Origin: an uncultured bacterium
GTDB taxonomy: Bacteria > Verrucomicrobiota > Lentisphaeria > Victivallales > UBA1829
Assembly (NCBI GenBank): GCA_949297765.1
Contig: CASFTV010000022.1
Coordinates: 1-64,000, forward strand
Direction: 5' to 3'
Length of the DNA: 64,000 nt
A program made the position numbers and the translations under genes. Every line of letters begins with the position of its first letter. Position 1 is the first letter of the stretch. Of the stretch, positions 37,284 to 47,493 are shown piece after piece. A model generated the notes under the pieces. The model saw only the letters and a list, made by a program, of their open reading frames with translations. It was not told the DNA's origin and ran no database searches.

Positions 37284-38063
37284 TCAGACTTTTGCTCCGC
37301 GCGCGAGTTTGCGGGAGACTCCGCCGTCCACGATGATGCTCTGTCCGGAGAGAAAGCCGGATCGTCCGGAAACAAGGAACATCGCCGTTTCCCCGATGTC
37401 GCGCGGTTCGCCGATCCGCCCGACCGGAATGCCTTCGGCAATTTCTTCGCGATTGAATCCCGGCGCCTCCGTCATGCGTGCCACTTCGATATAGCCGGGC
37501 GCAATGGCGTTGATGCGGATGTGATCTTTTCCGCACTCCAGCGCGAGCTGTCCGGTCATGGAGTGGATCGCCCCTTTACTTGTGGCATAGAGGGTCCGCC
37601 CGGTGACGCTGGTCTCCATCTGGACCGAGCCGATGTTGACGATGCTCCCCCCGGACGGCGTGTTTTTCCGCATCCGCCGGATCTCGTTCAGACAGCAGAA
37701 CAGTGTTCCGCGGATGTTCATGGAGGTGAGTTTTTCGTAGGTTTCGAACGTGATGTCGTCAAACGGCATGAATCCGGGATCCCAGCCGGCGTTGTTCACG
37801 GCCGCGTCGAGTCCGCCGAAGACGCGGTCGACTTCCGCAAACAGCGTTTCGATCCCCTCTTTCGTCCCGAGATCGGCCCGGCAGAGATGGATCGCCCCGC
37901 CGAAGACGGAAAGACGTGTTTTCAGCGCTTCCGCCTCCTCCGGCGAGGACCGGAAATGGAGCAGAAGGTCCGCTCCGTTTTCCGCAAAGACTTCCGCGAT
38001 TCCGGCGCCGATTCCCTTTGCCGCGCCCGTAATCAGAATTCGTTTTCCGCTCAGCTCTTTCAT
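37284..38063 (-). CDS. Short-chain dehydrogenase/reductase (SDR), sugar-acid pathway
   Basis: This is a classical NAD(P)-dependent SDR of 259 residues. The cofactor motif is TGAAKGIGAG (residues 13-22), the NNAG motif is at about residue 90, and the catalytic triad is completed by YATSK. The C-terminal GQSIIVDGG is typical. Its start overlaps the stop of a GH5-like gene by 4 bp, and it is the last gene of the seven-gene cluster containing an IlvD-type dehydratase and a DapA-type aldolase. A role in sugar or sugar-acid oxidation is therefore likely, but the family is too broad to assign a substrate. Confidence 0.9.
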   Translation of the reverse strand: MKELSGKRILITGAAKGIGAGIAEVFAENGADLLLHFRSSPEEAEALKTRLSVFGGAIHLCRADLGTKEGIETLFAEVDRVFGGLDAAVNNAGWDPGFMPFDDITFETYEKLTSMNIRGTLFCCLNEIRRMRKNTPSGGSIVNIGSVQMETSVTGRTLYATSKGAIHSMTGQLALECGKDHIRINAIAPGYIEVARMTEAPGFNREEIAEGIPVGRIGEPRDIGETAMFLVSGRSGFLSGQSIIVDGGVSRKLARGAKV

Positions 38064-39814
38064 GATTTCACCGTCAGCAGATAGGTTCCGGGGAAGAGAT
38101 GGAGCGTGCCGTCATCCGCCGGCGCTTCCGTTTTTCCGGTTTCCGCATTCCGGCAGGCGGTCACCTGCCACGGAAGAAGACGGAAATCCACTTTCCCTTC
38201 GTGAAGAAGCGAGACCGGCGGCTCCTTCAGACAGTTCACATAGCGGTTTGCCATGAACCGGTAGGTTTTGCCGCGGCCGGGATCGGAGAGGAACTGCTGC
38301 GCCGGGAAGATTGTCAGCTTCCAGGTCCCATCCTCCTGTTTCTCCAGGAAGTAGCAGCCGTTCGAGCTGCTTTCCGCGAAACGGGATTTTCCGCGGCCGG
38401 AGACGGCGGTGAGTTTGTCAAGGTCGCCGAGCGGGAGATCGTTGTCGCAGGAATAGCGGAAGACCCTCTCGTTCCGGAATGCGACGAAGTCGTTGTTCCG
38501 TTCGATTGTGTAGTTGTTTCCGTGCCACTTTTCCGTTTCCCGGACGACCGGATCTTCCGGTTCGTTGTTCCGGAAGATCTCGCCCGCCGCCGCGAATCCG
38601 GCCGCGCGGGAGGGGGTGTGCGCAATGTTGAGGAAATGCACCACCCAGCCCGGATTCCATGCGGCCACCGCATAGGGCGTGTAGGTGAAGTAGGCCGCCA
38701 TCTGGACATCATGCTTCGCGTACATTGCGGCGATCGCGGCAAGCGGATAGCCGTTCTGCGTGGCGGTGGCGTCGAACTCATAGGCGATGCGTGCGAATTT
38801 CCCTTTCGGAAGGCCTTCGTAGGGTTTGAACCAGCGTTCGGCAAGTTCCAGATGATTCGCGGAATCTGTGTTGGAGCCGTCGAACTGGTTGACGTTGAGA
38901 TAGGTGCCGATGGTGATCGCGTCGATGCCGCACTGCTCGAAGACCGGAAGAAGATCCGGCGGAATGAGTCCGCTGTACGAGGGGAACTGCGCTTTGATGA
39001 CCTGTTTGCCGAAATACTGGTCGATGACCGGCCAGAGATGGCGGAAATAGCGTTCGACCAGTCCGGAACGGAAACGGCTGAACTGGGTGTCGTCGTCTCC
39101 GTCCGGGTGCTCGGCGCGGAAGGCTTTCCACATTTCCTGAAGTTTTCTGCGCTGGCGTCCGCGGGAGAAGACCGCGTTGGCCATGTGGTGCGCCGGATCG
39201 AACTCCTCCAGAATCTGCTGGAGGGAGGGGAAGGGGGGTTCGTTGATGAGTTCAAACGCAACGATGTTCCTGTACTCGTTCATCCGTTTGCCGCTGACGG
39301 TGCTTTTCCGGGAGAAGAGCGCGTGGAGGTAGGTCTCCTGACAGCGGATCGCGTCGGGATCCCAGATCATGGAGTCGCAGGAGTAGAAGTTCGAGAAGCC
39401 GAAGGCCTCCTGGGAGTCGATGAACCAGTAGGCGTAGTACTTTTCCTGGAAAATCTGGTTTGCGACGGTGTTCCACCAGACGGTCGGGGTCAGCATCAGA
39501 TAGATCCCGTTCTTCTCGCATTCGTCGATCAGGTAGTCGAGGACGCGCATGTTCTTGTTTTCGACGATGTTGCCGTCGCGGTCGGTGATCTCCCGGTCGT
39601 AGAGATGCATCCGGATGAAGTCGATGCCCATCAGCTTGAAGTGGCGGATGTCTTCGTCGATCGCCCGGAAGTGGTCTTTTCCGAGCTCTTCGATGTTGTA
39701 GAAGTTGCTGTTGAACGGCGTGTAGTAGTTGACGCCCCAGAGTTTGACTTTTTTCCCGTCGGCGTCGTAGATAACGTTGTCCCGAACGGAAAACGGTGTT
39801 GAGAAAGATGGCAT
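38060..39814 (-). CDS. GH5-like glycoside hydrolase, cytoplasmic
   Basis: The 584-residue protein begins directly with the barrel (VKLWGVNYYTPFNSNFYN), without a signal peptide. Acid/base is E192 in AFELINEPP, and the nucleophile is E346 in IAYEFDAT. A beta-sandwich covers the last 130 residues. The overall form resembles GH5-related enzymes acting on short oligosaccharides. AAGGAG precedes the ATG by 6-7 nt. It lies 14 bp after a GH101/129-like gene and overlaps the SDR start by 4 bp, placing it in the oxidative sugar cluster. Confidence 0.87.
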   Translation of the reverse strand: MPSFSTPFSVRDNVIYDADGKKVKLWGVNYYTPFNSNFYNIEELGKDHFRAIDEDIRHFKLMGIDFIRMHLYDREITDRDGNIVENKNMRVLDYLIDECEKNGIYLMLTPTVWWNTVANQIFQEKYYAYWFIDSQEAFGFSNFYSCDSMIWDPDAIRCQETYLHALFSRKSTVSGKRMNEYRNIVAFELINEPPFPSLQQILEEFDPAHHMANAVFSRGRQRRKLQEMWKAFRAEHPDGDDDTQFSRFRSGLVERYFRHLWPVIDQYFGKQVIKAQFPSYSGLIPPDLLPVFEQCGIDAITIGTYLNVNQFDGSNTDSANHLELAERWFKPYEGLPKGKFARIAYEFDATATQNGYPLAAIAAMYAKHDVQMAAYFTYTPYAVAAWNPGWVVHFLNIAHTPSRAAGFAAAGEIFRNNEPEDPVVRETEKWHGNNYTIERNNDFVAFRNERVFRYSCDNDLPLGDLDKLTAVSGRGKSRFAESSSNGCYFLEKQEDGTWKLTIFPAQQFLSDPGRGKTYRFMANRYVNCLKEPPVSLLHEGKVDFRLLPWQVTACRNAETGKTEAPADDGTLHLFPGTYLLTVKS

Positions 39815-39828
39815 GGATCACTCCTTGG

Positions 39829-41661
39829 TTATGCGTGAGAAACCGCCGCGCTTTTCCCGGGAAGAACGCTTCCGTCCTCTCCGGTGAACGCCCGGTCCGA
39901 AAAGTTGACGGTCACGGAAACTCCGTTTGCGAAGACGGTCCGCTGGACGGTGCGGTCCGCCGAAAGATAGTCGAAGGAAATCATCCGCGCCATACCCGTC
40001 TCCCGTGCCGCCGGAGCGGTACGATGATAGGAGGCGGCAATCTCTTCCTTCCGTTCCTCCCACTGGGTCGCGGTGAGGCTGTACAGCGGCGGCTCGCCGC
40101 AGAGCGCGTCGAACAGGTCGCGGAGAACCATCAGCTCCGGACAGCAGTTGGAGCTGTCGCCCCAGTACCAGTAGCTCACGGCGCAGTCGTGATAGACCAG
40201 CTGCCAGAGCGGGATCCGGTACTGCGGATTCAGCATGTAGCGGCGGAACGAATCCGGAATCTCCGCGCCGCGGTAGACGGTGGTCATGCGGCGGCCCGCG
40301 TCCTCCGCGCGGAACTCCACCGGACTCATCATCCCCTCCGAAAAGTGGAAGGCGTCGACGGCGGCTTCACAGCCGACCTCCACTCCGTTGACCAGACCGA
40401 TGTCCGAGAGGAAGTTGAGCTGGGTTTTGATGTAGCGCATGGAGTCGGCGCGCGTCGCCGGATGGAGCGGATGGTAGCACTCCTGAAGATAGCCGCCCGC
40501 CTGCACGTCGATGAAGCGGGAGGTGTAGCCGACCTTTTCCACATCCGGCGGAACGTTTTCCATCGTCAGTTTCAGCGCGGGAATGTCGCAGACGGAGTTT
40601 TGCCAGTGCAGTTCGCCGTCGAGTCCGTGCAGCTGCCAGGCTTTGGCGTATTCGCCTTCGCGGGTGATCCGGACGATCCCCGGCCAGTACTTCGTGTTGA
40701 CGCTCCGTTTGACGCGGTAGGGGATGATTTTGTCAACGTCCGGTTTCGGCAGAACGTCGCGGTAGATGTCGTATTTTCCGACGAGGAAGCCTTTGCTTTT
40801 CAGAAAGGCGCAGTCTTCCGGCGTCTCTCCTTCAAAGGAGTTCCAGAGGACGCGGTCCATGCCCAGACGTTCCAGATCGGCGGCGATCTTCCGGACGTTG
40901 CGCGGCGTCTGTTCCGGCTCCTCCGGACGGGCGTACAGACGGTTCATGTTGTTGTCGTCCCAGAGCCAGAGATCCGCCGCGCCGATCAGTTTTGCCAGCT
41001 CCGGCGTGTGTTTCATCTTCTCCTTCAGGGTCACGACCTGTCCGAGCGATTCACGCCATGCGCGGTACTGTGCCGCGCCGTCGGAAAGAGTGTCGGCAAA
41101 AAAATACCGGACCGCGCGGGAATAGCCCCATTTCCCTTTTTCGTCGATCCAGATGATCCGGCTGTGGCGGAGTCCTTCCTCCTGCGTGTTGCGCAGTTCT
41201 GCGTCGAATCCGCATTCCACGCCGGTCAGCACGCAGTGATTCTCCCGCAGAAAGCCGAAGAGACACAGGGAGGCGCTCATTCCGGAGTAGAAGGCCATCC
41301 GTTCCGGAAGCGGAAAGTCGAGATCCTCCGCAGGAACGGCGAATCCGCAGCCGAGAGGATAGATTCCCATGTCCCCGCGTTTCATTTTCCAGGCGGGCGG
41401 CCAGGCGATCTTGTCCGGCATCTCTCCTTCCGCGTCGAGCCGGAGGGCGAGCCCTCCGTTTTCCGGAAGGGTCACGGTGACATGAACCGGAAAGCCGGAA
41501 CAGTCCAGATCGAACGTCAGCGCGTCTCCGTTCCGGACAACGTTGGAGACGGGAATGTCCGACGCGCACTGTTCCAGCTCCGTCCCGTCCGCCAGACGGA
41601 CCGAGAGCGAATTGCCTGCGTTCAGACGGACGGACATCATGGAGTTTTCCAGAATCGGCAC
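39829..41661 (-). CDS. GH101/GH129-like putative alpha-N-acetylgalactosaminidase, paralogue A
   Basis: The 610-residue protein has an N-terminal beta domain and then a barrel with the stretch LVYHDCAVSYWYWGDSSN. Candidate catalytic residues are the aspartate of RFIDVQAGG and the glutamate of GVEVGCEA, 43 residues later. From memory, this is the spacing of the nucleophile and acid/base in GH129. No signal peptide is present, fitting the intracellular GH129 type. The start is GTG with GAGGAGA upstream; an ATG seven codons later is an alternative. It shares a nearly identical 101-bp stretch with the second paralogue at 42596-44479, although the proteins are diverged elsewhere. GH101/129 act on O-glycan core GalNAc; activity here is inferred. 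Confidence 0.75.
   Translation of the reverse strand: MPILENSMMSVRLNAGNSLSVRLADGTELEQCASDIPVSNVVRNGDALTFDLDCSGFPVHVTVTLPENGGLALRLDAEGEMPDKIAWPPAWKMKRGDMGIYPLGCGFAVPAEDLDFPLPERMAFYSGMSASLCLFGFLRENHCVLTGVECGFDAELRNTQEEGLRHSRIIWIDEKGKWGYSRAVRYFFADTLSDGAAQYRAWRESLGQVVTLKEKMKHTPELAKLIGAADLWLWDDNNMNRLYARPEEPEQTPRNVRKIAADLERLGMDRVLWNSFEGETPEDCAFLKSKGFLVGKYDIYRDVLPKPDVDKIIPYRVKRSVNTKYWPGIVRITREGEYAKAWQLHGLDGELHWQNSVCDIPALKLTMENVPPDVEKVGYTSRFIDVQAGGYLQECYHPLHPATRADSMRYIKTQLNFLSDIGLVNGVEVGCEAAVDAFHFSEGMMSPVEFRAEDAGRRMTTVYRGAEIPDSFRRYMLNPQYRIPLWQLVYHDCAVSYWYWGDSSNCCPELMVLRDLFDALCGEPPLYSLTATQWEERKEEIAASYHRTAPAARETGMARMISFDYLSADRTVQRTVFANGVSVTVNFSDRAFTGEDGSVLPGKSAAVSHA
40137..40237 (-). repeat. 101-bp segment shared with paralogue B (copy 1)
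   Basis: By eye this stretch differs from 42919-43019 at only 4 of 101 positions, while the flanking sequences of the two genes diverge strongly. It encodes LVYHDCAVSYWYWGDSSN and its surroundings. Identity that includes synonymous sites suggests gene conversion rather than selection on the protein alone. Confidence 0.8.
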
Positions 41662-41688
41662 GGGGAATCTCTCCTCTTTTCCAGAGAT

Positions 41689-42591
41689 TTACTGGATGAA
41701 TTCCGTTTGGATCATTGCATAGAGTTCTTCGAAGAGCGCATCGCTCACGGGATCGCTCACATAGCCGGGATGGCGGCAGTAGGCGCTTCCGATGAAGGAG
41801 CGGCGCTTCAGAATCTCCTTTTCATAGTGAATGATCATTTCGACGTTCTGACGGATGTGGTTCAGCAGGGCGTTGAGCTTGTCATGGACGCGCTGCGCCT
41901 CCGCATTGTCGCCGGCGAGGAGGGCGTCCCAGATCTTGCGGTAGACGTCGGGCATCGAGGGGCCGGGCATCACGCCGTACGCACCGCGGCGGAATCCTTC
42001 GATCATCTGGAATCCGGCGTTTCCGACAAAGATTCTGCGTCCTTCCGGCAGCAGCGTCATCAGTTTGGAAATATAGGCTCCCGGCGGCTTGCATTCGATC
42101 TTGAAGTAGGCAAGATTCTGATGTTTTTTCGCCAGATCCGCGAGAATTTCCGGCGCGATTGCCACACCGGTCTGCTCCGGCGCATACTGGAACATGACGG
42201 GAATCTTCACGCTGGAGCAGACCGCGTCAATGTGCGCGAAGAGCGCGGCGCCTCCCGGTTTGAGGAAGAAGGGCGGAAGAACCATCATGCAGTCCGCACC
42301 GGAGGATTCGATCCGTCTGGCCCATTTTACCGCGGATTCGGTCGAATGGCGCGTGTTCGAGACGATCGCGGGAACGCCGTTTTCGTGGCAGACCCGAACC
42401 GTGGAGTCGATGAGCTTCTCCTCCTCCTCGCGATCCAGTTTGTAATACTCTCCGGCGATACCGAACAGCGTCAGCGCCTGTGCGCCGCGGCGGATCAGTT
42501 CCGCGCAGCAGAGTTCATAGCCTTTGTAGTCCACCTCTCCGGCGTCGTTGAACACCGCCGGGGCAATCGGACAGATCCCTTTGATTTCCAT
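41689..42591 (-). CDS. Dihydrodipicolinate synthase-family aldolase (DapA/NanA/KDG aldolase type)
   Basis: The 300-residue TIM-barrel protein uses a Schiff-base lysine to make or cleave 2-oxo acids. The residues are K164 in AYFKIECK and Y136 in FQYAPEQTG, 28 apart as in DapA. GIAGEYYKL holds the GxxGE motif. It is not likely to serve lysine synthesis, since it sits between two glycoside hydrolase genes next to an IlvD-type dehydratase. Cleavage of a 2-keto-3-deoxy-aldonate, or sialic-acid-like lyase activity, is more plausible. The ATG at 42591 is chosen because GGAG lies about 10 nt upstream and it falls 4 bp after the previous stop. Confidence 0.9.
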   Translation of the reverse strand: MEIKGICPIAPAVFNDAGEVDYKGYELCCAELIRRGAQALTLFGIAGEYYKLDREEEEKLIDSTVRVCHENGVPAIVSNTRHSTESAVKWARRIESSGADCMMVLPPFFLKPGGAALFAHIDAVCSSVKIPVMFQYAPEQTGVAIAPEILADLAKKHQNLAYFKIECKPPGAYISKLMTLLPEGRRIFVGNAGFQMIEGFRRGAYGVMPGPSMPDVYRKIWDALLAGDNAEAQRVHDKLNALLNHIRQNVEMIIHYEKEILKRRSFIGSAYCRHPGYVSDPVSDALFEELYAMIQTEFIQ

Positions 42592-42595
42592 AGTG

Positions 42596-44479
42596 TTATT
42601 CTCCTGTTCTCTGGTTGAGTTCAATTAGAAAATCCTGCGGAGGAATGGATGTTCCGGAGCCGGTCCGGAATTCCTTCTCCGAAAAATTCACGGTGACGGA
42701 AACCCCGTTCGAGAAGACCGTGCGCTGGACCAGCCGGTCGCCGCTGAGGTGTTCGAACGAGACCATTTTTTCGTATCCGGTGAGCGTTGCCGTGCGTGTG
42801 GCCCGTCCCGCCGATTCCAGAAGACGGCTTTTCAGCGTCTCCCAGTCGGAAACGTGGAACGAATAGAGCGGCGGCTGGCCGTACAGCAGATTGAACAGGT
42901 CCCGCTGCGGAAGAAGTTCCGGACAGCAGTTGGAGCTGTCGCCCCAGTACCAGTAGCTGACGGCGCAGTCGTGATAGACCAGCTCCCACAGCGGAATCCG
43001 GTACTGCGGATTCAGCATGAAGCGGTCGAACACCTGCTCATGTTCCTCCGGCGGATAGAGATGCGCCTTCCGGCGGCCGGATTCCCGATAGTTGATCCGG
43101 TAGTGCGCCGGACTCATCTTCCCTTCGCAGTAGCAGTACGAGGAAACATAGCTTTCCGCGCCCTCCTCGGTTCCGGAAATCAGTCCGTTGTCCGCGAGAA
43201 TGCGGAAGGCGTTGTTCCGGCGGCGGATGCACTCCCGCCGCGTCAGCGGATGGTCCGGCGACCAGCAATCCTGACTGCCGCAGCCCATCACGTCGAAAAA
43301 CCATGCGTTGAATCCGTATTCCCGGGCGATCGGCGGAACTTCCCCGCCCGTGTACTCTTCGACGAACGAGGGACACGTCCGGTTCTGGGGATGCATTTTT
43401 CCGTCGCGTCCGCGCAAAGCCCAGGCTCCGGTAAAACTTCCGTCTCTGTCGCGCATGGTGTCGCGGGGCCAGTACTTCATTCGCCGTGCTGTATAGTCGC
43501 ACTCGCGGATTCGCGCGGGAGAGATCAGCGGAGCCACGGTTCCGGAGAGTTCATCCTCCATGTTGTCGTAGTGGGTGACAAGGAAGCCGGTCCGTTCGAC
43601 GATCTCCCGCGCGGCGGAACGGTCGCCGGAAAAGAAGATTCCCATCAATGCTTTTCCGCAGCCGCCCTCCTTCAGTTCCTCCGCGATGCGGAGGATGTCC
43701 TTTGCGGCGGGTTTGAGTTCCGCATGGTCGTCGGTTCCATACATGAAATTCTCATATCCGTCGGGCCAGATCCAGCAGTTTGCCGCGCCGATCAGGGAAT
43801 CCAGATGCGGAAGTTTCTTCCGTTTCTCCTTCAGCGTCACGATCTGCCCGAGCGATTCCCGGTATGCCCGGTACGCGGAGCAGAGCGCATTCAGTCCTCC
43901 CGTTCCGCCCGACAGAAACCGGAGGACGCGTTCATATCCCCACTCTCCCCGCTGAGACTCCCAGCAGAGCTGCGAGCGGAGAAGACCATCCGCTCTTTCG
44001 TGCCGGACCGAGGCGTCCGCTCCCTCTTCCGGCGCCAGCGCGATCCAGGCATCTCCGCGCAGAGAGGCAAGAAGCGCCATGTGCCACGTCTGCGAGCAGA
44101 GGGACGCTCTTTCGGGCAGGACCGGGATCGACGGATCGTCCACCGGGAACGCGAATCCCTCTCCGGCGGGGATCAGTGCAAGATCCCCCTTTTCCGGAAG
44201 CAGGGCGCCGGGATATTCAACGGCGGTTTCCATCGCGCCTTCCGCGAAGAGGCGCAGTTCCGGATTCCCGTCCGCGGCGAACTCCAGAACGGCGCGCACC
44301 GCAGACGGATGCCGGACCGAGGTCAGCGTGAAAACGATTTTTTCCTCCTCCTCCGACACCGTCTTTGCGGAAAAGCCGTTTCCTCCGAACCGGAACGCCG
44401 TATTGCCGTTCCGGAGCGTGAGGGAGGCATCCGGCAGATTCAGGGCAATTCGTATGGCATTGTGCTTCAGTTCCGGCAT
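42596..44479 (-). CDS. GH101/GH129-like putative alpha-N-acetylgalactosaminidase, paralogue B
   Basis: The 627-residue protein is a paralogue of the gene at 39829-41661, with the same domain order. Candidate catalytic residues are the aspartate of AWFFDVMG and a glutamate of SGTEEGAE about 42 residues later. The barrel stretch LVYHDCAVSYWYWGDSSN is identical to that of paralogue A, whereas the N-terminal beta domain is only distantly similar. The ATG at 44479 has GGGAGAA upstream. No signal peptide is seen. The two paralogues flank the aldolase gene, which suggests tandem duplication around it. Two versions may serve different O-glycan cores (inference). Confidence 0.75.
   Translation of the reverse strand: MPELKHNAIRIALNLPDASLTLRNGNTAFRFGGNGFSAKTVSEEEEKIVFTLTSVRHPSAVRAVLEFAADGNPELRLFAEGAMETAVEYPGALLPEKGDLALIPAGEGFAFPVDDPSIPVLPERASLCSQTWHMALLASLRGDAWIALAPEEGADASVRHERADGLLRSQLCWESQRGEWGYERVLRFLSGGTGGLNALCSAYRAYRESLGQIVTLKEKRKKLPHLDSLIGAANCWIWPDGYENFMYGTDDHAELKPAAKDILRIAEELKEGGCGKALMGIFFSGDRSAAREIVERTGFLVTHYDNMEDELSGTVAPLISPARIRECDYTARRMKYWPRDTMRDRDGSFTGAWALRGRDGKMHPQNRTCPSFVEEYTGGEVPPIAREYGFNAWFFDVMGCGSQDCWSPDHPLTRRECIRRRNNAFRILADNGLISGTEEGAESYVSSYCYCEGKMSPAHYRINYRESGRRKAHLYPPEEHEQVFDRFMLNPQYRIPLWELVYHDCAVSYWYWGDSSNCCPELLPQRDLFNLLYGQPPLYSFHVSDWETLKSRLLESAGRATRTATLTGYEKMVSFEHLSGDRLVQRTVFSNGVSVTVNFSEKEFRTGSGTSIPPQDFLIELNQRTGE
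42919..43019 (-). repeat. 101-bp segment shared with paralogue A (copy 2)
   Basis: This is the second copy of the near-identical segment described at 40137-40237. The four differences fall near the middle and 3' part. Similarity drops sharply on both sides. Confidence 0.8.
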
Positions 44480-44493
44480 TTGTGTTCTCCCGG

Positions 44494-46173
44494 TCAGCGC
44501 ATGTAGGGGAAGTCGCATCCTTCGTCCGCCTGCAGGACGTTGTCGATGTAGTGGCGGACGAATCCGCGTTCAAACGACTCCTTGGACTGGAAGGTGGTTT
44601 CTTTCAGCCGTTCCGCGATCTGTTCGGGGGAGAGTTCCACATTCAGAATGCCCTTTTCGACGTCCATTTCGATGATGTCGCCGTTCCGGACCGCGCCGAG
44701 CGGACCTCCGTCGCAGGCTTCGGGGCAGACGTGCAGAACCACCGTTCCGAACGCTCCTCCGCTCATCCGGGAATCCGTGATGCGCACATAGTCCTTGATT
44801 CCGCGCTTGTAGAGTTTCGGCGGGATCGGCATGTAGTTTCCGAATTCCGGCATTCCCGGTGCGCCTTTCGGTCCGTATCCGCGCAGGATGATCGCTTTGT
44901 TTTCATCCATGTCGGAGTTCGGATCCAGCAGATATTTTTCCGCTTCGGCGAGGGTGTCGAACACGCGCGCTTCGCCGCGGAACTTCAGAATCGACGCGGC
45001 GGAACGCTTGATGACCGCTCCGCGCGGCGCAAGATTGCCGTACAGAACCGCGATGCCGCCTTCCGGTTTCAGCGGTTTGTCGAACGGGGCGATTACATCG
45101 GGCCGGTAGGGCGGCTCCACATGTTCCAGATTTTCCTTCAGAGTTTTTCCGGTGACGGTCAGCACATCGGTGTGGAGGAGGGGTTCCAGCTCCTTCATCA
45201 GAGCCGGGACGCCGCCCGCCTGATGGAATTCGATCCCGACCGTTCCCTTGCCCGAGGGTTTCACGTCGACCAGAACACGCGTCCGTTCGCTGATCTTCTG
45301 GAACTCCTCCAGCTTGAGTTCGATTCCCGCCCGGCGCGCGATCGCCGTCAGATGGATGATCAGATTGGTGGAGCCGCCGGAACTCATCAGAACGGTGATG
45401 CAGTTTTCGATTGCCTTTTTCGTGACGATGTCGGTCGGTTTGATATCCCGTTCGATCAGGTTCATGATGGTGCGTCCGGTCTCCTCGGCGTACCGCATTT
45501 TCTCGGCGGAGACGGCGAGGGCCGTGGCGCTTCCGGGAAGCGAAAGCCCGAGCGATTCCGTCGCACACTGCATGCTGTTCGCGGTTCCCATGATCGGACA
45601 GGCTCCGATGCTGCCGTACAGACAGCCTTCGGCTTCATTCAGATCTTTTTCGGTCAGTTCTCCGGCGAGATAGCGGGTCCAGAGTTTGAAGCTGTCGGTC
45701 CCGCAGGCGAGCGATTCTCCCTTGTAGTTTCCGGGGAGCATGGGGCCGCCGGGCAGGAAGATCATCGGTTTGTTCGCGGAGACCGCCGCCATCAGCTGGG
45801 CGGGAACGTTTTTGTCGCACGATCCGAGCAGAATCACGCCGTCGAACGGATGGCGCGCGATCAGCTCTTCGGTGGTGATCGAGAGAAGATTGCGGTAGAT
45901 CAGGCTGGAGATGTCGAAAAACACCTCGCAGATCGACATGGTGTTGACCTCCAGCGGAAAGCCGCCCGCCGCCCAGACACCGCGTTTTACGGCATCCGCC
46001 ATCTGACGGAAGTTGTAATGTCCGGGATTGGTCTCCGCCCAGGTGTTGATGATTCCGACGATCGGTTTGTCCAGATCGACGTCGGTGTAGCCCATCGACT
46101 TGATGAGGGCGCGGCGGAGCAGGCACTGCCGCGTACCCGGTTTCAGCCAGGTCTTCGAATTCGAATTCTTCAT
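44494..46173 (-). CDS. IlvD/Edd-family dehydratase, probably for a sugar acid
   Basis: Members of this family dehydrate 2,3-dihydroxy acids, including aldonates such as arabinonate, xylonate, galactonate and 6-phosphogluconate. Iron-sulfur ligands C119 (GSCDKNVPA) and C192 (GSIGACPIMG) are present, as is TANSMQCATE. The position that is cysteine in [2Fe-2S] pentonate dehydratases is glycine here (NPGHYNF), as in E. coli IlvD, which carries an oxygen-labile [4Fe-4S] cluster. At 559 residues the length is normal. The neighbouring aldolase and SDR argue for a sugar acid rather than branched-chain amino acid synthesis. It is the second gene of the operon, 13 bp after the regulator. Confidence 0.9.
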   Translation of the reverse strand: MKNSNSKTWLKPGTRQCLLRRALIKSMGYTDVDLDKPIVGIINTWAETNPGHYNFRQMADAVKRGVWAAGGFPLEVNTMSICEVFFDISSLIYRNLLSITTEELIARHPFDGVILLGSCDKNVPAQLMAAVSANKPMIFLPGGPMLPGNYKGESLACGTDSFKLWTRYLAGELTEKDLNEAEGCLYGSIGACPIMGTANSMQCATESLGLSLPGSATALAVSAEKMRYAEETGRTIMNLIERDIKPTDIVTKKAIENCITVLMSSGGSTNLIIHLTAIARRAGIELKLEEFQKISERTRVLVDVKPSGKGTVGIEFHQAGGVPALMKELEPLLHTDVLTVTGKTLKENLEHVEPPYRPDVIAPFDKPLKPEGGIAVLYGNLAPRGAVIKRSAASILKFRGEARVFDTLAEAEKYLLDPNSDMDENKAIILRGYGPKGAPGMPEFGNYMPIPPKLYKRGIKDYVRITDSRMSGGAFGTVVLHVCPEACDGGPLGAVRNGDIIEMDVEKGILNVELSPEQIAERLKETTFQSKESFERGFVRHYIDNVLQADEGCDFPYMR

Positions 46174-46186
46174 GATGCGGTCCTTT

Positions 46187-47227
46187 TTATTGACAGGGGG
46201 TTGTTTCTATGAGTTTGGACGAAAGTTTTTTTGTCGTGATGCCGAAGCATGGATTTTCGATCTGGCGGATCAGCATGGACGCCGCTTCGCGTCCCAGTTC
46301 CTCCATCGGCGGTTCGACGGTCAGGAGGGGATGCGGAAGAAATTCCGTCAGCAGCGAATGGTCGAATCCGGAGATCCGGAGATGCGAGATGTCGATCCCG
46401 TGCATCCGCGCCTTCCGGGTGAAGACGCCCGCACAGAAATCGTTGAGGCAGCAGACCGCGTCCGGTGCCTTCTCCGGTGTCCGGAACAGTTCACAGAACC
46501 GGTCCTGCTCCTCCGGCGTGCTCTCCTGCGGACAGATCCATTCCGGACGGGGCTGAAGACGGCATTTTTTCAAGCCCGCCAGAAATCCGAGCGTTCTCTC
46601 CTGGGCGGCAAGCGGATTGACGCTTCCCCCTCCGAAGAGCGCGAAGCGGCGGCATCCCTCCTGATAGAACCGTTTCACGATTCCCGTGATCCCGTCCGCA
46701 TTCTCAAACGTGAGCAGACTGCCCTCGATCCCATCCGGCATCCGGATCAGAAACAGAACGGGAATTCCGCTTTCCACAAGGATCCGGCAGGTTTCCGGGC
46801 GGGCGTGACGGGGATCCGCGTAAAGGACGATTCCCGCCGGTTTCCGTGCAACTGCGGTGGCGGTGATCCGCTCCTGCCCGGCGGCATCTCCGGACAGCGG
46901 AAGAATCGACGGCAGATAGTTCGCATCCGCCGCTGCCAGACTGAAACTCTTCAGACTCTCCGCGAAAAACACCACGTCATGACAGAGGAAAATCAGTTCC
47001 CTCGAAATGACCTTGCTGCTTCCCGCAATGGTGCTGCCGACTCCGTTCTGTTTGAGGATCAGTCCGCGTTCCGCCAGCTCTGCCAGAGCCCGGCGCAGAG
47101 TCGGTTTGCTTACGCCGAATTCATCCGCCAGCTCCTGTTCGGCCGGCAGGTGGGTTCCTTCGGGCAGAACGCTGAATTTCTTTTCCAGCCTGCCCAGCAG
47201 TGTCCGATAGATGTTTCCGCGTGCCAT
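46187..47227 (-). CDS. GntR-type HTH / LacI-type sensor regulator of the oxidative sugar cluster
   Basis: The protein joins a GntR winged helix (residues 1-70, with PAEQELADEFGVSKPTLRRA) to a LacI-type sensor. The sensor has AGIVLYADPRHARP and GISGFDHSLLTEFLPH-like elements, and it ends with TVEPPMEELGREAASMLI. The ATG at 47227 was preferred over a GTG three codons upstream because GGGAGAG lies 8 nt before it. It heads the seven-gene operon and probably controls it, giving autoregulation. Confidence 0.88.
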   Translation of the reverse strand: MARGNIYRTLLGRLEKKFSVLPEGTHLPAEQELADEFGVSKPTLRRALAELAERGLILKQNGVGSTIAGSSKVISRELIFLCHDVVFFAESLKSFSLAAADANYLPSILPLSGDAAGQERITATAVARKPAGIVLYADPRHARPETCRILVESGIPVLFLIRMPDGIEGSLLTFENADGITGIVKRFYQEGCRRFALFGGGSVNPLAAQERTLGFLAGLKKCRLQPRPEWICPQESTPEEQDRFCELFRTPEKAPDAVCCLNDFCAGVFTRKARMHGIDISHLRISGFDHSLLTEFLPHPLLTVEPPMEELGREAASMLIRQIENPCFGITTKKLSSKLIETTPCQ

Positions 47228-47493
47228 TTTGCACACTCTCCCTTTTTTCGGAGAATACCATACAATCGTTTCGGATGGATTGCAAATATAAAATGCAAAA
47301 AAAATAAAATATTTTTTATGGTTTGAGTGTTTTGTACCTAAAATAAAAAGAGTATGATTAAAATTTAATGAAAAACAGCCTCTTCCAGAATCCGCTTTCC
47401 TGATGATGAGGAAATATAGATTGTGATTTTTCTGTCCTGAAAATTTGATTTTTGTTCATATCATGATATTGTATCATGTAATATAAAATTATA

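Follow-up and report, generated by a model that had tools for sequence, protein, structure and literature searches.

Probable old or repeated short-tract gene conversion within a tightly conserved motif of two diverged GH129-type paralogues

Two strongly diverged genes, A and B, in the window (the whole stretch of 64,000 nucleotides that was analysed) share one nearly identical segment, here called the patch, and this match probably goes back to old or repeated short-tract gene conversion within a tightly conserved motif. With a probability of about 0.58, RecA-type short-tract conversion reset A against B in the motif, either once in an ancestor or repeatedly, and slow silent change then kept the match. 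Two sequences alone overstate the case for a recent conversion, and sister genomes point to an old or repeated event mixed with slow silent change.

The two genes and the segment that they share

Both copies score above the Pfam cut-off for PF11308 (Table 1) and, judged from their sequences, are ancient, strongly diverged GH129-type paralogues. Over 608 aligned codons the proteins are 39% identical and the DNA is 53% identical with the patch included, a value that falls to 0.50 once the patch is excluded, so that the strong divergence elsewhere (protein 39%, DNA about 50%) described in an earlier note on this DNA is confirmed; the aldolase gene placed there between the copies likewise belongs to the DHDPS family. 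The predicted structure of A has a mean pLDDT of 93.2 and its fold matches are GH129 entries (5opq, Z 33.7; 5wzq, 33.1; 8rzk, 31.8), the next entry reaching 19.5. A and B thus resemble the solved GH129 enzymes, the NagBb alpha-N-acetylgalactosaminidase (5wzn) and the Zobellia 3,6-anhydro-D-galactosidase (5opq; ZgGH129, 8rzk), in the PF11308 score of both copies and in the fold of the A model, whereas sequence identity of A across the fold alignment is about 20% and, unlike those enzymes, A and B adjoin sugar-acid genes.

Table 1. Positions in the window of the two paralogues, the patch and neighbouring genes
Feature	Position	Strand	Evidence or remark
Gene A, GH129-type glycoside hydrolase (predicted), 610 aa	39829..41661	-	Pfam PF11308 104.4 bits, cut-off 25.6
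Gene B, GH129-type glycoside hydrolase (predicted), 640 aa	42596..44518	-	Pfam PF11308 68.4 bits, cut-off 25.6
Patch in gene A, residues 476-508, MLNPQYRIPLWQLVYHDCAVSYWYWGDSSNCCP	40137..40237	-	4/101 differences vs 42919-43019; 25/28 same codons
Patch in gene B, residues 501-533, MLNPQYRIPLWELVYHDCAVSYWYWGDSSNCCP	42919..43019	-	4/101 differences vs 40137-40237; 25/28 same codons
Codon just beyond the patch 3' edge	40135..40137 (A), 42917-42919 (B)	-	GAG in 5/5 A, GAA in 4/4 B; fixed silent difference (alignment column 656)
DHDPS-family aldolase, between A and B	41689..42624	-	Pfam PF00701 107.2 bits
Dihydroxy-acid/sugar-acid dehydratase, upstream of B	44494..46173	-	NCBIfam NF004784 661 bits, cut-off 539; control gene
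Second glycoside hydrolase, downstream of A	38060..39814	-	Pfam PF00232 23.7 bits, cut-off 22.6; control gene

The count of four differences in 101 sites given in the earlier note is exact by direct comparison (mismatches at 40177, 40203, 40207 and 40213), and an independent repeat finder ranked the A/B patch pair first in length among direct repeats (193 nt, 81%). The patch comprises 33 whole codons with 32 of 33 residues identical between A and B, and both of its ends coincide with the ends of a conserved protein block, the fixed silent difference of Table 1 adjoining the 3' edge. The barrel strand proposed for it does not agree with the model of A, in which a short helix (485–490) and loops make up most of the patch, together with a two-residue bridge. 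Elsewhere in the genome itself the patch does not recur. At identical residues, Met and Trp excluded, the same codon is used at 25 of 28 positions in the patch and at 109 of 196 outside (Fisher p 4e-4). Expected from codon usage were 12.4 of 28 with the long ORFs of the window, a length-selected set in which some ORFs lie antisense to A and to the dehydratase gene, and 13.4 of 28 with the two genes' own usage, which is independent of that set; codon usage as the only cause is thereby ruled out. In a permutation test for the best same-codon run over the whole gene, p was 0.003–0.019 depending on the mismatch penalty. From these values it is evident that the match exceeds chance as well as protein conservation plus codon usage; all p values in this study are per test, and many tests were run.

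The match in related genomes and at silent sites

The set compared consists of five A and four B genes, those of the window included, and the close relatives in it are MAG or metagenome-bin contigs. A search of genome contigs yielded 42 loci with the alignment as query and none with B alone, and left out of the comparison were one B gene whose contig stops before the patch (G003), fragmentary B copies (L054/G454) and distant copies (G384). Patch identity between A and B is 95/99 in the window's genome (A0-B0) and 88/99 (A1-B1), 90/99 (A2-B2) and 91/99 (A133-B133) in the others, and the peak is seen in all four genomes with both patches as well as in cross-species A-B pairs. In a silent-run permutation p was at most 0.012 in 4/4 same-genome pairs and below 0.05 in 8/16 cross-genome pairs, and same-genome codon sharing in the patch ranked only 2 of 24 label permutations. 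Since the peak occurs in three other genomes and between species, any reset of A against B would be ancestral or recurrent, and the description of the recombination as recent is not borne out.

Silent identity was calculated at codons whose residue is invariant across the five A and four B genes. In the patch (25 codons) it was 0.79 for A-A, 0.82 for B-B and 0.80 for A-B comparisons, and outside (113 codons) 0.54, 0.56 and 0.45, respectively, so that inside the patch A resembles B as closely as each gene resembles its counterparts in other species, whereas outside the A-B value is lower (0.45 versus about 0.55). The earlier argument from synonymous-site identity to recombination holds to the extent that this orthologue-like similarity of A and B is confined to the silent sites of the patch; the same sites are, however, also slow between species within A and within B, which recombination does not produce. 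In close relatives the silent rate of the patch between species is about 0.17–0.27 of that outside, and because a normal rate would be expected under conversion only, conversion does not by itself account for the pattern.

The likelihood analyses separate the two contributions in part. With a codon model restricted to silent sites, a slower patch rate (x0.21) improved the fit by 27 log units and collapse of the A|B branch alone by 7, the collapse adding 1.2 log units once the patch rate was slowed; in the third-position version of this test 15 of 200 simulations were at least as extreme. Simulations of slow silent change in which the A|B branch was retained seldom brought A-B identity up to the within-gene level (12 model settings, P of difference 0–0.067, one 'balanced' tree among the settings having been set by hand). 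In the maximum-likelihood tree from all sites the branch dividing A from B measures 0.003 in the patch and 2.23 outside, although the null topology was not rejected; for the patch neither the null nor the A0+B0 topology was rejected, the two being 0.07 log units apart. In the silent-site tree behind the codon model the A0 branch is close to zero in length, probably owing to the higher third-position G+C of A0. Codons nearly fixed within each gene (majority at least 4/5 in A and at least 3/4 in B) agree between A and B at 20/20 positions in the patch and 26/36 outside (p 0.007), p rising to 0.12 and 0.17 under stricter thresholds, and wholly disjoint A and B codon sets were found at 0/25 positions in the patch versus 8/113 outside (p 0.19). 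The best window among four other genes, used as neighbouring-gene control, reached 0.784, and slow silent windows are therefore not unique to the patch.

Among distant relatives, a two-copy genome from another family (G331) has the same codon in A and B at 19/19 deeply invariant patch codons and at 45/68 outside (p 0.001). These shared codons differ from those of the window's genome, and the sharing spans much of the second half of the genes, beyond the patch. A Firmicutes two-copy genome (G453) gave 14/19 in the patch versus 37/68 outside (p 0.105); among 150 relatives of that genome, two matches came from G453 itself and from no other. A quartet test against two distant lineages was significant in 5/8 comparisons (p 0.0098–0.32). 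In six single-copy relatives from another group (L044–L049, 15 pairs) no patch effect was seen, patch values being much like those outside. With respect to equal nucleotide conservation in distant orthologues, which the earlier note regarded as favouring selection, nucleotides of the patch are kept among close relatives and not across genera, where A0 and A of G331 have the same codon at 11/19 positions in the patch and 37/68 outside, nor do the single-copy orthologues display the effect.

Weighing of alternative explanations

The earlier proposal of a conversion that is recent and restricted to the window's genome could account for A0 and B0 being closer to each other in the patch than A0 is to other A genes (87–91) or B0 to other B genes (90–93), for the Ala codon GCC, found in A0 and the majority of B genes at a position that encodes Val in the four remaining A genes, and for a split joining A0 and B0 with 77% bootstrap. 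It is nevertheless very improbable, as the three other genomes with both patches display the same peak, patch codons at invariant residues that are common to A0 and B0 alone number 0/25 (5/113 outside), and both genes exceed their relatives in third-position G+C, which also raises their likeness. Still less credible is an assembly or binning artefact in which chimeric contigs were joined at a common k-mer. Such an origin might be suspected from the MAG or metagenome-bin source of the close relatives and from gene B of G133, which is split over two contigs that both contain 123 nt of B at the patch, but the copies in the window differ at four sites within the patch, the flanking reading frames are intact and the match is present in separately assembled genomes.

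A possible, though clearly less probable, alternative to conversion is strong selection on codons or nucleotides (translation accuracy, co-translational folding or mRNA structure) without recombination, under which each gene would have retained or arrived at identical codons on its own. Consistent with this, the patch is the slowest silent-site window in A (0.784) and in B (0.82), the likelihood is dominated by the slow-rate term, and codon sharing in G331 extends along a long conserved region. The retained codons are, however, often non-preferred ones (AAT, CGG, TGT, AGY), and any enrichment of the patch in ribosomal-protein-type codons is slight (fraction 0.40–0.64 versus 0.40–0.60 outside in nine genes, the reference being 747 codons in the ORFs of a single ribosomal region), so that a preference of this type was discarded. 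Extra codon identity at the same residues across genera is lacking, as is the patch effect in single-copy relatives, and the 113 invariant residues outside the patch behave otherwise. As to RNA structure, the predicted fold of the 99-nt patch is more stable than that of synonymous redraws in 9/9 sequences (z -1.3 to -3.2), but control windows fold as extremely (z down to -4.5), compensatory changes were found at 0/34 and 0/30 pairs, and Rfam returned no match up to E 1; a conserved RNA element was accordingly rejected as a candidate. An overlapping reading frame was also considered: a single antisense frame stays open throughout all nine sequences but mirrors the sense codons, and no gene is claimed for it.

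Conversion in a constrained motif and known parallels

Conversion between A and B is the best single explanation of orthologue-like A-B silent identity in the patch alone, and as such it is partly supported; tight conservation of the motif accounts for part of the match. Short-tract conversion between A and B is an ordinary kind of event, and we infer recombination as cause of the reset, together with its age, direction and RecA-type mechanism. The patch would be the most tightly conserved motif common to the two paralogues, and short RecA-type conversion tracts would have reset A against B inside it, either through a single event in the ancestor shared by the related genomes or on several occasions. 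The restriction of the tracts to the patch may reflect purifying selection on the protein, under which this segment alone stays similar enough for homologous recombination, the flanks being presumably too diverged, and slow silent change in the motif could afterwards have preserved the match. A rather speculative extension is that the motif is a self-maintaining recombination island, in which protein constraint sustains the identity needed for recurrent conversion and conversion in turn sustains identity, a cycle that would operate separately in two or more bacterial lineages, those of the window's relatives and of G331; the 33 codons would then evolve as a single unit common to two diverged genes. 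If real, the case would illustrate cleanly and on a small scale how conversion between bacterial paralogues of ancient origin can persist only where constraint on the protein leaves sufficient DNA homology, and the patch motif would be unsuited to gene trees.

In PMC4530459, gene conversion between RF1 and RF2 is described for Bacteroidia and Chloroflexi, covers nearly a whole domain (about 83–88 residues) and was detected with protein trees, one case being headed as a single ancestral event. As in A and B, the genes are ancient bacterial paralogues and conversion is limited to a region of common function; there a near-whole domain and protein trees are involved, whereas here the segment has 33 codons, the signal lies at silent sites and no topology was rejected. 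Long-lasting concerted evolution of prokaryotic genes, in which paralogues of one genome are, recurrently over long times, closer than orthologues, concerns whole genes in PMC6053082, whereas in A and B it is one short segment of otherwise fully diverged genes that matches.

The A and B genes and their shared patch

The genome that contains the window comprises 4.2 Mb in 92 contigs, with the window on contig C22. Those of its close relatives whose records carry a name are MAGs of uncultured Victivallis or Victivallales, plus an uncultured-bacterium bin. A DHDPS-family aldolase gene sits between genes A and B (copies A0 and B0 in this genome), and the composition of the surrounding gene block suggests that an unknown glycan is degraded via a sugar acid. 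A fold comparison for gene A also identifies it as GH129-type, with matches to 5opq (Z 33.7), 5wzq (33.1) and 8rzk (31.8), the next entry having a Z of 19.5.

Genes, gene block and patch copies in the window
Feature	Coordinates	Strand	Remarks
Gene A, GH129-type glycoside hydrolase	39829-41661	-	Pfam 104.4 bits, cut-off 25.6
Gene B, GH129-type glycoside hydrolase	42596-44518	-	Pfam 68.4 bits, cut-off 25.6
Gene block	38060-47236	-	regulator, sugar-acid dehydratase, B, DHDPS-type aldolase, A, second glycoside hydrolase
Patch in gene A	40137-40237		
Patch in gene B	42919-43019		

The A and B proteins are 39% identical over the full alignment. Within the patch 4 of 101 bases differ and 32 of 33 residues are identical. 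Where the residues agree (Met and Trp excluded), A and B share the codon in 25 of 28 cases in the patch but in 109 of 196 elsewhere (Fisher p = 4e-4), and codon usage would give 12.4 or 13.4 of 28; the near-identity between diverged genes pointed out in the earlier note thus holds. The best same-codon run along the gene gave permutation p values of 0.0026 to 0.019. Third-position G+C is 0.78 in A0 and 0.72 in B0, compared with 0.59 to 0.67 in the relatives' genes, which generally raises A-B likeness. Codon preference does not account for the choice of codons in the patch.

Relatives carrying both genes

Both genes were found in the genomes G001, G002, G003 and G133 (copies numbered 1, 2, 3 and 133), and five A and four B patches were compared, the B copy of G003 stopping short of the patch; G004 has a single A-type gene in the genome as sampled. 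Patch identity between A and B is 95/99 for A0-B0, 88/99 for A1-B1, 90/99 for A2-B2 and 91/99 for A133-B133. The A0 patch matches those of the other four A genes at 87, 89, 90 and 91 of 99 positions and the B0 patch those of the other three B genes at 93, 90 and 90, whereas outside the patch A0 shows an identity of 0.72 to 0.73 with A1-A3 and of 0.50 with B0. Only within the patch, therefore, do paralogues match orthologues in closeness.

Gene B of G133 is split over the end of one contig (C56, L058) and the start of another (C129, L040), with 123 nt in common that start inside the patch. With about 77% identity to A and B the G133 copies are at a within-genus level, though the family given for G133 is not that of the window genome; misbinning or operon transfer is possible, as sample label E02 is found on the named contigs of both G133 and G003.

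Codon constraint and probable conversion

Codons for residues invariant in the nine genes agree in the patch at 0.79 (A-A), 0.82 (B-B) and 0.80 (A-B; 25 codons), and outside at 0.54, 0.56 and 0.45 (113 codons). In a codon model the silent rate between species in the patch was 0.21 of that outside (27 log units gained), and the patch is the slowest silent window in both A (0.784) and B (0.82). This slowness favors the main rival explanation, selection on codons or nucleotides alone, which we consider possible but less likely than conversion; the dehydratase gene also has a silent window at 0.784, so the slowness of the patch is not extraordinary by itself. The 99-nt patch folds more stably than synonymous redraws in all nine sequences, z lying between -1.3 and -3.2, yet values down to -4.5 occur in control windows of the same test, no compensatory changes were found among 34 pairs of the folded structure or 30 pairs of a consensus structure, and the patch gave no Rfam match.

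More distant genes speak against selection alone. Among six single-copy A-type orthologues (L044-L049, from Oligosphaera and MAGs; 15 pairs), patch values scatter around outside values (sample pairs, 22/27 versus 427/514 and 22/28 versus 406/509). For a deep set of 19 patch and 68 outside residues invariant over 12 genes of three lineages, which the truncated B133 does not contradict, the A gene in the genome G331, which belongs to a different family, shares its codon with A0 at 11/19 patch and 37/68 outside positions, and its B gene with B0 at 11/19 and 34/68. Patch codons are thus not kept across genera, and the orthologue conservation that the earlier note would have attributed to selection on codons or RNA is present among close relatives only. 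In the same set, A-B agreement in the patch and outside was 17/19 and 36/68 in the window genome (Fisher p = 0.003), 14/19 and 28/68 in G001 (0.012), 17/19 and 31/68 in G002 (0.0005), 19/19 and 32/60 in G133 (5e-5) and 19/19 and 45/68 in G331 (0.001). A quartet statistic from which general constraint on codons drops out was higher in the patch in 8/8 comparisons, which are not independent, with p < 0.05 in five.

In the patch, moreover, A and B are not set apart from each other. In a tree of all sites, the branch between all A and all B genes measures 0.003 in the patch and 2.23 outside, part of the latter being protein change. Once a slow rate is allowed in the codon model, collapse of this branch adds just 1.2 log units on silent sites; outside the patch silent A-B identity is near the codon-usage level, so that silent sites there hold little information on the depth of the branch. 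In 12 simulation settings with the slow rate fitted and the branch kept, equal within- and between-gene identity was rare (P 0 to 0.067); six settings with a zero-length branch gave P of 0 to 0.147. Codons nearly fixed per gene are the same in A and B in 20/20 cases in the patch versus 26/36 outside (p = 0.007; three other cuts, 0.02, 0.12 and 0.17), and the glutamate codon directly beyond the 3' patch edge is GAG in 5/5 A genes and GAA in 4/4 B genes.

We favor, with a probability of about 0.58, old or repeated short-tract conversion enabled by purifying selection, combined with slow silent change. Purifying selection would keep only this motif alike enough between A and B for recombination, a short tract within it would have been converted long ago or repeatedly, and slow silent change would add to the match. 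Such conversion would proceed by a RecA-type mechanism and would require a minimum of homology. Precedents for the A/B patch are RF1-RF2, where conversion is confined to a domain of common function (PMC4530459), and the long-lasting concerted evolution described in prokaryotes (PMC6053082).

Age, direction and possible recurrence

A 40-column window scan placed the largest excess over expectation at the patch in A0-B0, A1-B1, A2-B2 and A133-B133, and this peak is common to cross-genome A-B pairs. Permutation of silent runs gave p values of 0.0050, 0.0123, 0.0063 and 0.0003 for the four same-genome pairs and p < 0.05 in 8/16 cross-genome pairs. None of the 25 invariant-residue patch codons is exclusive to A0 and B0, and one is exclusive to A133 and B133; at column 638, A2, B2 and A3 have CAT and the other six CAC. 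The recent conversion proposed earlier is not borne out by the shared peak and the lack of codons exclusive to A0 and B0, and these sequence patterns fit an ancestral reset, perhaps with later events, rather than a single recent event in the window genome. At one position Ala is encoded by A0 and by all four B genes but Val by A1, A2, A3 and A133, which hints at conversion from B to A, a hint weakened by Ala at this position in further A-type genes.

The patch codons of G331 differ from those of the window's relatives, and its A-B match looks, from codon comparison, like an independent repeat. Codon sharing between its A and B genes extends through much of their second half (best run 107/133; 20 or 21 matches in 19/212 windows of 22 codons), so that the patch is not unique there; the two genes sit on separate contigs (L131 and L132). 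A Firmicutes MAG (Candidatus Alectryocaccomicrobium; L052, 4839-8613) has adjacent A-like and B-like genes, which agree at 14/19 patch and 37/68 outside positions of the deep set (p = 0.105). This adjacency indicates that the A/B duplication is old and was probably transferred between phyla.
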